Of a DNA stretch of 64,000 bases, positions 59,906 to 63,568 are shown piece by piece. A program made the translations under genes and the position numbers. Below the pieces are notes generated by a model, which made no database searches, was not told where the DNA came from, and worked only from the letters and a program-made list of their open reading frames with translations. Position 1 is the first letter of the stretch. The number at the start of each line of letters is the position of its first letter. The stretch spans positions 62,001 through 126,000 of the forward strand of contig QCJC01000004.1 in NCBI GenBank assembly GCA_003216275.1, written 5' to 3'. Origin of the DNA: Prochlorococcus sp. AG-402-P18. GTDB taxonomy: Bacteria; Cyanobacteriota; Cyanobacteriia; PCC-6307; Cyanobiaceae.

Positions 59906-60028
59906 ATGGCTTACAATGAATCAACAGTAGTATTGGGTGGGCTCATGCATATACCAATTGTAATAATGTTTCTAAGATTTATTGAGAATAGATTCAATAA
60001 AAATGAAGCAAAATACCAAAACAACTAA
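59906..60028 (+). CDS. Small single-span membrane protein (40 aa)
   Basis: 40 residues, MAYNESTVVLGGLMHIPIVI then MFLRFIENRFNKNEAKYQNN. One membrane helix (about 8-24) and a basic C-terminal tail. It is a good-quality frame in an otherwise AT-rich spacer, with ATG at 59906. No family recognised. It could be a photosystem or cytochrome accessory subunit given its neighbours, but this is a guess. Confidence 0.55.
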   Translation: MAYNESTVVLGGLMHIPIVIMFLRFIENRFNKNEAKYQNN

Positions 60029-60106: not shown

Positions 60107-60709
60107 TTGAAAACTATTATAATTACCGGGCCATCTGGATCTGGAAAATCTATTCTGACTAACAAATTAGCCAAAGTATTTGATAATGTAATTACTATAC
60201 AAACAGATTCATTCTATAAAGATGATATATATATTAAATTATTATCTTGTATTAAGCATGACATTTATGATAGGAAATTTAGTATTAAAAGTAAGGAAAT
60301 AATAGAAACATTAAATTCATATTATAATAATACATCAGTCATATTATATAATTATGATTTTAAAATTAAAAAATCAACTAAATCATTACAGAACAGTAAG
60401 ACCTGTAATACTAATAGAATATTAATATTAGAAGGTATATTCGCACACAGGTTAGAATTAAATTATAAACAAACAATAAATATAATTTGCAAGGAAGAAA
60501 AAAACATCTGTTATCAAAGGAGACTAAAGAGAGATAAAAAAGAAAGAGGAAGAAAGAAAGAAGAAATCAAAAAAAGATTTAATAGTTCTTGGGATCTATA
60601 TTATAAAAATGTAGACAAATACCTTAAAAACAATGAGGTTATTGAAGTTAATACGGAAGATAAATTCTCTTATGAAGTATTAATATCTAAACTTCAAAAT
60701 ATTTGCTAA
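60107..60709 (+). CDS. Uridine-kinase-like P-loop protein
   Basis: 200 residues with the P-loop GPSGSGKS at 8-15 (TIIITGPSGSGKSILTNKLA), the QTDSFYKDD block near 34-42, and LILEGIFAH near 107-115, which together match the uridine kinase/phosphoribulokinase superfamily. RRLKRDKKERGRKKEEIKKR near 138-157 is the basic lid helix. It is strongly AT-biased in coding and likely diverged. The start is TTG at 60107. The nucleoside substrate is not certain. Confidence 0.75.
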   Translation: MKTIIITGPSGSGKSILTNKLAKVFDNVITIQTDSFYKDDIYIKLLSCIKHDIYDRKFSIKSKEIIETLNSYYNNTSVILYNYDFKIKKSTKSLQNSKTCNTNRILILEGIFAHRLELNYKQTINIICKEEKNICYQRRLKRDKKERGRKKEEIKKRFNSSWDLYYKNVDKYLKNNEVIEVNTEDKFSYEVLISKLQNIC

Positions 60710-60710
60710 A

Positions 60711-60752
60711 AATAACAAGACAAAATAAATTACATTATTTTGTCTTGTTATT
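60711..60752. terminator. Perfect 18-bp inverted repeat terminator
   Basis: AATAACAAGACAAAATAA (60711-60728) and its exact reverse complement (60735-60752) enclose a 6-base loop. It begins just after the uridine-kinase-like stop and lies 28 bases from the stop of the convergent 49-residue gene at 60781, so it can serve both. The T-run is weak but the stem is the longest in the window. Confidence 0.75.
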
Positions 60753-60780: not shown

Positions 60781-60930
60781 TTACTTTTTAACCTCAGGTG
60801 CGTTCATCCCATCATAATCAGGGCCAACCATCAAACCAACTATTGCAAATAATGCAATAGAAGCAACCCCAACTAGCACTGCAGTAGGAGCTGGTGTGCT
60901 AGTTAAACCAGCAAATAATAAGTTTTCCAT
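60781..60930 (-). CDS. Small membrane protein, PAPTA family member 1 (49 aa)
   Basis: 49 residues, MENLLFAGLTSTPAPTAVLV then a single helix (about 15-36) and a soluble tail VGPDYDGMNAPEVKK. It aligns end to end with the gene at 61227-61376, which is the same length, sharing FAGL-STPAPTA, GVA--ALF-I and VGP-YDG-N-P. It is clearly a tandem duplication. I do not recognise the family; a thylakoid or photosystem accessory role is possible. A strong shared terminator lies just downstream. Confidence 0.78.
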   Translation of the reverse strand: MENLLFAGLTSTPAPTAVLVGVASIALFAIVGLMVGPDYDGMNAPEVKK

Positions 60931-61172
60931 GAAGGACGAATAAAGCTAGTTATAAATAGCAGAAAATCAAATCATTTAATTAATTAGTTACTTGGTTTAA
61001 ATCAAAAATATTATAAATTACTTTTTTATACACATATAAGAAACTAATGTATAGTTCAGATAAAGTATTCTATACATTACTACATATTAATATGTGTATT
61101 AAGCATTTTAGAAAAAGACTAATCAACAATTTATTTTTCTAATTCGTCAATTAAAAATTAAAATTAAAAAAA

Positions 61173-61203
61173 ATGAGCAAGTATGTCCAACATACCTACT
61201 CAT
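61173..61203 (-). terminator. Intrinsic terminator on the minus strand
   Basis: The minus strand reads ATGAGTAGGTATG, loop TTGGA, CATACTTGCTCAT, with two G-U pairs in the RNA stem. It is followed directly by a T-run (seven T, then AATTTT). This is a classic rho-independent terminator for the 49-residue gene ending at 61227. Confidence 0.85.
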
Positions 61204-61226
61204 CAACTTTAAGGTTTATCTACTAT

Positions 61227-61376
61227 TTATTTAGATGTATTGGGATCATTGAATCCATCGTAGTTAGGGCCAACAACGACAGCCATTATTCCAAATAGAG
61301 CCATAAATGCAACACCTATGATTGGTGCAGTAGGAGCTGGTGTACTTAGAAGTCCAGCGAAGGTTAAATCAAGCAT
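61227..61376 (-). CDS. Small membrane protein, PAPTA family member 2 (49 aa)
   Basis: 49 residues, MLDLTFAGLLSTPAPTAPII then a helix (about 16-36) and VVVGPNYDGFNDPNTSK. It is about half identical to member 1 at 60781-60930. Its own intrinsic terminator (61173-61203) separates it from member 1, so the two are separately transcribed. The ATG at 61376 is followed by no better upstream start. Function unknown. Confidence 0.78.
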   Translation of the reverse strand: MLDLTFAGLLSTPAPTAPIIGVAFMALFGIMAVVVGPNYDGFNDPNTSK

Positions 61377-61700
61377 GTTCTTTAGTAAGACTCAATATAA
61401 ATACCAGTCATCAGGGAATATGACCATTGTTATTTTACTTTGTAACATTTAATTCTTCATCAATTAAGCTATGACTAGCTTTAGGATGGCAATCATGAAG
61501 AAAGCTTAATAACAGACAAATCAATAGAAAGGGAAGTAAGCATAGCTTGCTGAGATGAATTGTAGGTAGAGGGTAAAAAATAAGAAAGGTTAGTAATTAT
61601 TTATTATGTTATTACTAATTAATTCTCATATTAATAAAGCATAGAAACTTGATTAATTTTATATTATAAAAGATAATTTAAAATACCTAAGAACTTTAAT
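61377..61700. other. Spacer with one start-less hydrophobic frame on the minus strand
   Basis: About 320 bases. A minus-strand frame ending at about 61436 reads LLPFLLICLLLSFLHDCHPK followed by ASHSLIDEELNVTK and stop. It looks like a signal or membrane segment plus a soluble tail but has only a TTG as possible start. I do not call it a gene. The rest is AT-rich and should contain the promoter of member 2 at 61376 and of the gene at 61701. Confidence 0.35.
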
Positions 61701-62090
61701 ATGCGTCCGATAACACCACTCGATCAATTTGAGGATGCCTGTATTAAGGCAAGGTTAAATACAAAAGAGCAAAAGATAATAGATCATATTAGATACGTTG
61801 GTGTCTTTACTCAACCCTCACTAACTAAGGATCTAAGATTAGATTCAAAACCTCCACTATTATCAATACTATGTGAAATATGTAGAAAAATAGGTCACCA
61901 TATGCCTGTTCATTTCGCAAATGTTAGAGAATGGTCAAAACAAATTAATGAGCATAAAGTTAAATGGGACGGAGAGCTCATCTGCTCACTTGCATGGAAT
62001 AAGGACGGTGAAAGACTATCACCAGAGAATGGAACCTGCCTTTACCATACATTTGCTGTCCACAAAGAATTATTCCAAGGATTAGATTAA
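61701..62090 (+). CDS. Conserved-type picocyanobacterial hypothetical protein
   Basis: 129 residues, soluble. MRPITPLDQFEDACIKARLN leads to a helical part and a region with several Cys and His (ILCEICRKIGHHMPVHFANV, about 56-75), then a beta-type end WDGELICSLAWNKDGERLSP. The Cys/His spacing is not a clean zinc motif. No family recognised, but the balanced composition and length support a real gene. It converges with the gene at 62111. Confidence 0.65.
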   Translation: MRPITPLDQFEDACIKARLNTKEQKIIDHIRYVGVFTQPSLTKDLRLDSKPPLLSILCEICRKIGHHMPVHFANVREWSKQINEHKVKWDGELICSLAWNKDGERLSPENGTCLYHTFAVHKELFQGLD

Positions 62091-62518: not shown

Positions 62519-63568
62519 GTGAACGTTCTTGATCAGACTGAAGTGGTAAATTCTAAAACAAAGATAAAACCTGTCGTAGCAGTAACTATGGCAACAAGTA
62601 GGCAAGGGATTGGTGTCGTTAAGGAGCTATCAAAGACCGACAAATATCAAATACGGGCAATTACTAGGAATACCAAAAGTGCAAAGGCGTTAGATCTTGT
62701 CAAGCTAAATAATGTAAGCCTAGTGACAGGCGATCTAATGTGCCCAAAATCACTTAATAAGGCTTTTGATGGAGCAGAGATAATTTTCGGGAACACTACA
62801 CCTACCAAAGGATGGAAAATATTTAGAGGCAGCATTGTAAGAAACTATGAAATTGAGCAAGGATTCAATTTAATAAATCAAGTAAAGATTGCCTATAAAA
62901 AAGGAACACTAAATCACTTTATATTTAGCTCTATAAGTAAACCAAAAGATCCTTTAAAAAGTGATCCTGCTCCTGGTCATTTTACAAGCAAATGGGATAT
63001 AGAAGAATATATTAAAAAACTAGGACTTAAAGAAATAACGACAATTTTACGACCAGTTAGTTATTTTGAAAATTTTGAAAATAAATTACCAGGATACACA
63101 ATTTCCAAATCGATCATTCCAGGAATAGTAGAGAAGAATGTTAAATGGCAAACAATTGCCGTTGAGGATATTGGTAAATGGGTAAAAGGTGTTTTATCTA
63201 AATCATATAAATATAAAAATCAATCCTTAAACATTGCTGGTGAAGAGTTAACAGGACAACAAATGGCGAAAATACTTCAAAGAATAGTCTCATCAGAAAG
63301 GTACAAAACCAACTACGTGATGATTCCAAGAATAGCTATAAAACTCTTGGAATATGACATAGGAGTGATGGCAGACTGGATTGAAAGAGCAGGATATGGA
63401 GCAAACATGAACGAACTTAAAAGGATTCAAAATGATTTAGACATAACACCTACTTCATTTGAGGATTGGCTTAAGTCAAAGTTAATAGCAGATAGGAATC
63501 AAAATAGATCATGGGCAAATAAATGGAAAAGCTCCCAATGGGAATTGCAATTGGATAACAATAGATAA
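62519..63568 (+). CDS. NmrA-like NAD(P)-binding protein (atypical short-chain reductase)
   Basis: 349 residues. The N-terminal nucleotide-binding fold reads VAVTMATSRQGIGVVKELSK, an NmrA-like Rossmann start with a modified glycine loop. The middle FIFSSISKPKDPLKSDPAPG and the YFENFENKLPGY block fit the NmrA/atypical-SDR family, which often acts as redox-sensing or isomerase proteins. No catalytic YxxxK is evident. The start is GTG at 62519. Confidence 0.75.
   Translation: MNVLDQTEVVNSKTKIKPVVAVTMATSRQGIGVVKELSKTDKYQIRAITRNTKSAKALDLVKLNNVSLVTGDLMCPKSLNKAFDGAEIIFGNTTPTKGWKIFRGSIVRNYEIEQGFNLINQVKIAYKKGTLNHFIFSSISKPKDPLKSDPAPGHFTSKWDIEEYIKKLGLKEITTILRPVSYFENFENKLPGYTISKSIIPGIVEKNVKWQTIAVEDIGKWVKGVLSKSYKYKNQSLNIAGEELTGQQMAKILQRIVSSERYKTNYVMIPRIAIKLLEYDIGVMADWIERAGYGANMNELKRIQNDLDITPTSFEDWLKSKLIADRNQNRSWANKWKSSQWELQLDNNR

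Follow-up and report, generated by a model that had tools for sequence, protein, structure and literature searches.

The window, the whole stretch of 64,000 nucleotides that was analysed, contains two genes of 49 residues on the reverse strand, A and B. Their coordinates and those of the surrounding features are collected in Table 1. The two products match each other with 59% identity (E 9.6e-15, tblastn) and have the motifs FAGL(L/T)STPAPTA and VGP(N/D)YDG(F/M)N-P in common, as well as a hydrophobic stretch of 19 residues (17–35) with a mean Kyte-Doolittle value of 2.5–2.7. The reading frames, hydropathy and identity agree with an earlier, sequence-only reading of this DNA, which had placed two 49-residue frames with a shared helix and conserved ends here. 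Members of the family, which we call STPAPTA, have one helix, the signature 'STPAPTA...VGPxYDGxN' and 46–56 residues, so the equal length of A and B is not a family rule.

Table 1. Features at the A/B locus, in window coordinates.
Feature	Position	Strand	Basis
Gene A, STPAPTA family, 49 aa	61227..61376	-	ORF, dN/dS, AlphaFold2 helix 17–35
Gene B, 49 aa paralogue of A	60781..60930	-	ORF, dN/dS, tree
Promoter/5' leader of A, conserved, noncoding; CTGGTATTTATA about 20–30 nt before the ATG	61377..61430	-	conservation, pS close to pN
Promoter-like element of B (CTGCTATTTATA) and short leader	60931..60970	-	conservation
Intrinsic terminator of A	61172..61204	-	15-pair hairpin and T-run
Bidirectional hairpin serving as terminator for B (-) and for the convergent kinase gene (+)	60711..60752	.	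hairpin
Stand-alone MAYSE-anchor relative, 40 aa	59906..60028	+	homology to own PetH N-terminus
Uridine-kinase-like P-loop protein, between B and the MAYSE gene	60107..60709	+	PF00485, E 3e-16; conserved neighbour
Conserved protein, 129 aa, neighbour of A	61701..62090	+	no Pfam/NCBIfam match
NmrA-like NAD(P)-binding protein, conserved neighbour	62519..63568	+	PF05368, E 1.7e-35

Codon comparisons gave dN/dS ratios of 0.035 for A (28 distinct relatives) and 0.026 for B (32 distinct relatives), which indicates that both are under strong purifying selection; because of these ratios we regard them as real, translated and constrained genes. Most genomes of the genus have a counterpart of A with 83–96% identity. 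AlphaFold2 predicts a single helix of membrane-crossing length for A (residues 17–35), with a mean pLDDT of 73, and of 89 for residues 21–30. That A and B are small membrane proteins with one helix is a well-supported prediction. An extended, 73-residue reading of A, whose frame is open in most relatives, was rejected: in the upstream 72 nucleotides pS is close to pN, the window genome has an in-frame TGA and the upstream conservation is promoter-like.

Both genes are preceded by an element CTG(G/C)TATTTATA, conserved across the genus, of which the 3′ edge lies 19–20 nucleotides from the ATG. The DNA of the leader of A (61377–61430) is more conserved than the synonymous sites of A itself, perhaps beyond what a simple promoter needs. 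A terminator-like hairpin is located 3′ of A in 12 of 12 genomes examined, and a strong hairpin is found 3′ of B in most of 12. The earlier claim that each gene has its own strong terminator holds for A; for B it holds in most genomes, and in the window the hairpin is shared with the converging kinase gene. Separate transcription, which that reading also proposed and took as a hint that A and B may serve under different conditions, is borne out by sequence criteria, each gene having a promoter-like element and a terminator, and these elements support A and B as separate transcription units. No riboswitch or other known RNA reached significance when the locus was compared with Rfam.

The window genome (1.85 Mb in 35 contigs) contains four members of the family: A, B, C (G000:C2) and a divergent copy, D (G000:C3). 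Members are present in 41 of 41 genomes of the genus, and D-like copies in nearly all high-light-type genomes. Copy D occurs in nearly all Prochlorococcus, save the LLIV-like and a few other genera, the ecotype labels of genera (LLI, HL, LLIV) being putative ones drawn from genome size and relatives. When 291 genomes of the class were searched with a profile, members were found solely in Prochlorococcus-type genomes; outside Prochlorococcus this search gave no convincing member, and two weak partial matches contained stops. The family is absent from the genomes searched of Synechococcus, of the LLIV-like group and of several other genera of Cyanobiaceae. Relatives with a title (perhaps with the window's own record left out) are all from Prochlorococcus, mostly from single-cell genomes. 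In the collections searched, the family appears to be restricted to Prochlorococcus. A tblastn search of phage records and two scans of viral contigs revealed no relatives in phage or viral DNA; phage origin or phage copies were discarded as an explanation, the single tblastn match being spurious and the scans empty. The sequence-only reading had pointed to cyanobacteria and phages as places where the motif might recur; it does so in other Prochlorococcus, and not, in the collections searched, in Synechococcus, several other genera of Cyanobiaceae or phages. Frame-broken or decayed copies at L060:2811–3087 and L063:2812–2916 (genomes G001 and G004) suggest that the family has been both gained and lost.

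No curated family matched A or B at E ≤ 1 in Pfam, NCBIfam or PHROG, and no solved chain resembled them at E ≤ 10 in a profile search of 177,635 PDB sequences. The chlorophyll-binding motif ExxNGR is absent from both, and PF00504 was unmatched. The earlier reading had recognised no photosystem subunit in the pair and had allowed for a known photosystem or NDH subunit, or for absence from other picocyanobacteria; no named subunit of either kind was matched, and most members of the window's Prochlorococcus group have both genes in their genomes. No publication on the family was found among open papers, which were the extent of our literature coverage, subscription journals lying outside it.

Short, hydrophobic products with their own promoter and terminator, encoded in several copies, are what one would also expect of generic stress or envelope peptides, or of hydrophobic peptides like type I toxins, with no part in photosynthesis. 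We consider such a nature quite improbable for A and B, given dN/dS ratios of about 0.03 and the constraint on the polar tail, the spread of copy D through Prochlorococcus, the empty Rfam comparison at the locus and the joining of a family domain to ferredoxin-NADP reductase (FNR) in one genome, described below.

In a tree of 33 sequences, made from an alignment of 50 columns and resolving little else, A forms a supported group of its own (100/99), while B is placed not with A, but with genes of another Prochlorococcus genus (the G047 lineage), with weak support (90/79). At loci L220 and L221, A is present and B absent. Since B groups, if weakly, with the G047-lineage genes, the pair is probably old. 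A recent tandem duplication was rejected in view of the separate group of A, the placement of B with the other genus and the two genomes that have A alone.

The usual order of genes at the locus is NmrA-like, the 129-residue protein, A, B, kinase-like and MAYSE. The kinase-like protein (60107–60709) has a TTG start and diverges fast among relatives (E 2e-127 to 9e-28), its neighbours being well conserved. An NmrA-like homologue is also located near a family member in a high-light-type genome (L045). The last gene of the series, at 59906–60028, matches the amino-terminus of PetH from its own genome (52% over 31 residues, E 7.8e-6 in a single-sequence search) and has a dN/dS ratio of 0.11. Each of the 26 named loci that contain A together with B has such a MAYSE gene, 0.4–1.3 kb beyond B and on the opposite strand; two more loci have one near a single family copy. 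L217 and L273 likewise have a MAYSE gene close to a family member, so that the STPAPTA and MAYSE families seem to keep company.

The FNR (PetH) of most cyanobacteria has an amino-terminal CpcD domain, which binds the phycobilisome. In the Synechococcus-type genomes G053 and G060 the amino-termini of PetH are long, non-membrane and of the usual kind, which we take to be CpcD. Apart from the G047 protein described below, nearly all Prochlorococcus PetH sampled begins with a one-helix anchor, 'MAYSExxVxxGGLxHIP'. The start MAYSETKVV(L/I)GGLAHIPIIIGFFYLI... is found in 27 of 28 genomes of the genus, the remaining one being cut by the end of a contig. An anchor of the same type is present in 25 of 27 genomes from other small-genome groups (the exceptions are G047 and one broken frame), in two LLIV-like genomes and in G115. 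In Prochlorococcus PetH (G000:C3:79866–80996, L098, L248; loci L073–L129), the MAYSE helix and an Ala/Pro/Lys-rich linker of variable length take the place of CpcD. The anchor also opens longer, charged or coiled-coil proteins (L145:968–1813 and L146:2118–2960, the latter with a LysM-like carboxy-terminus), and the MAYSE proteins of high-light-type genomes (L157, L159, L161) have Lys/Glu-rich tails. Open papers yielded no publication in which a membrane anchor is described for Prochlorococcus FNR; as subscription journals were outside the coverage, this anchor may be known already.

In G047, a complete, single-contig genome of Prochlorococcus type, an STPAPTA domain opens an unbroken frame of 382 residues that continues as PetH. 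The NCBIfam model FNRPetHCyano matches residues 49–376 of this protein with E 7e-160, at profile positions 82–411 only, so that the CpcD part is replaced. The locus contains a MAYSE-plus-linker reading frame, a stop and then the STPAPTA-linker-FNR frame, and thus looks as if a family gene had been inserted in the linker of petH. No second, independent fusion was found in 11 genomes with PetH matches, the nearest relative included. That relative (G596, the nearest sampled, with an FNR 93% identical) has a PetH with the ordinary MAYSE anchor, so the fusion is, as far as sampled, a single and local event.

From this one fusion and from neighbouring genes (hli, psaJ, isiA and a CpcL-like linker) we infer a docking role for the stand-alone copies, and we likewise infer a thylakoid location with photosystem I (PSI) as the partner. 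The genes concerned lie at other copies and at relatives of the MAYSE gene. Copy C is convergent with a small hli gene in four of four genomes; two of the four also have, just upstream on the same strand, a cluster of hli genes and psaJ (PF01701, E 9e-11). In the window genome (L255:6440–8738, G000:C2), copy C is preceded by a cluster of five overlapping hli-type reading frames and by a psaJ-like gene, with the further, small hli gene convergent downstream. Genes of hli type are also close to family members in L166, L200 and L275. The isiA gene of marine Synechococcus has as its divergent neighbour, in four of four genomes, the gene of a MAYSE-like protein (MALSEFE...GGLTSIPV); in two of two, a MAYSE homologue is divergent from a CpcL-like linker (PF00427, with a hydrophobic or membrane segment at the carboxy-terminus). 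IsiA (PMC7214436) and CpcL-type linkers (PMC10322944) serve PSI. These adjacencies to photosynthesis genes were noticed post hoc, in a group where hli genes are numerous. Within the window there is no hli or psaJ gene near A and B, and no pcb gene at all.

Our preferred reading, held tentatively and at somewhat less than even odds, is that A and B are docking subunits of the photosynthetic membrane, most likely around PSI and its electron-acceptor side. The single helix (residues 17–35) would span the photosynthetic membrane and pack against PSI or its antenna. The STPAPTA amino-terminus would be lumenal and the VGPxYDGxN-P tail would lie at the cytoplasmic surface, because in the fusion FNR follows the domain and works in the cytoplasm. 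In the G047 lineage, the domain would keep FNR, itself a soluble enzyme of electron transfer, at the membrane; the stand-alone A and B may have the same complex as partner but carry no enzyme. Counted against the reading are the covalent joining in one genome only, the lack of hli and psaJ genes beside the pair and of pcb in the window, and the MAYSE start of the window genome's own PetH. A and B themselves end after 49 residues.

The same neighbours are open to another interpretation. Copy C adjoins hli genes, and a high-light-type copy adjoins a pcb fragment; together with the small size and single span, which suit low-molecular-mass subunits, this could make A and B Hli- or Psb-like small subunits, or assembly or photoprotection factors, of photosystem II or the Pcb antenna, unrelated to FNR and with the G047 helix serving as a generic anchor. 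The fragment in question (L048:2190–2675, G186) is pcb/CP43-like, with a frame of 162 residues, and looks truncated. We regard such a function as unlikely: there is no ExxNxR chlorophyll-binding motif, none of the models for Psb, Psa, Pet, Ndh or Hli proteins was matched, nor any solved chain, and within one and the same protein the STPAPTA domain has displaced a different FNR anchor from its site.

NDH-1, a complex with several one-helix subunits, is a further site of action of FNR and ferredoxin. On these general grounds A and B might serve cyclic electron flow as docking subunits of NDH-1 (or of a cytochrome b6f-NDH route) rather than of PSI. We judge this improbable, since no ndh gene was recognised beside the members examined and the neighbours point to PSI antenna genes.

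Extending the PSI docking reading, Prochlorococcus may have swapped the CpcD dock for two interchangeable one-helix families, MAYSE and STPAPTA, with A, B and the product of 59906–60028 as docks, competing or regulatory, that determine where FNR or other soluble partners are placed at PSI; to this wider scheme we attach a rather low probability. Few photosynthetic organisms are as abundant as Prochlorococcus, and FNR makes NADPH in photosynthesis. No description of where the FNR of Prochlorococcus is sited after the loss of the phycobilisome was found in open papers. Judged by sequence, Prochlorococcus FNR has a membrane helix that was exchanged once for one of the A/B family, and each of the two helix families is also encoded as small proteins that stand alone. 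Two anonymous small reading frames thereby become testable candidates for steering electrons after PSI.

When known systems are compared, the family resembles low-molecular-mass photosystem subunits and Hli proteins in size, in having one helix, in its several copies and in the neighbours of copy C; however, these proteins do not match A and B in sequence, and A and B have no chlorophyll-binding motif. The chloroplast tethers TROL and Tic62, larger proteins that are separate from FNR and hold it through a repeat motif, resemble the STPAPTA-FNR fusion, as far as their description goes, in recruiting FNR to a membrane. Closer at hand, the MAYSE anchor is, like the STPAPTA domain, a short one-helix module at the amino-terminus of PetH that also stands alone, beside A and B; it differs in that its helix starts right after seven residues and contains GGLxHIP, and in its basic tail, with neither STPAPTA nor VGPxYDG. 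FNR with a CpcD domain (FNR-L) has, like the G047 fusion, an amino-terminal addition at the same position of PetH that places FNR at a photosynthetic complex. While CpcD is soluble and binds the rods of the phycobilisome, the addition in Prochlorococcus, an organism without ordinary phycobilisomes, is one membrane helix.
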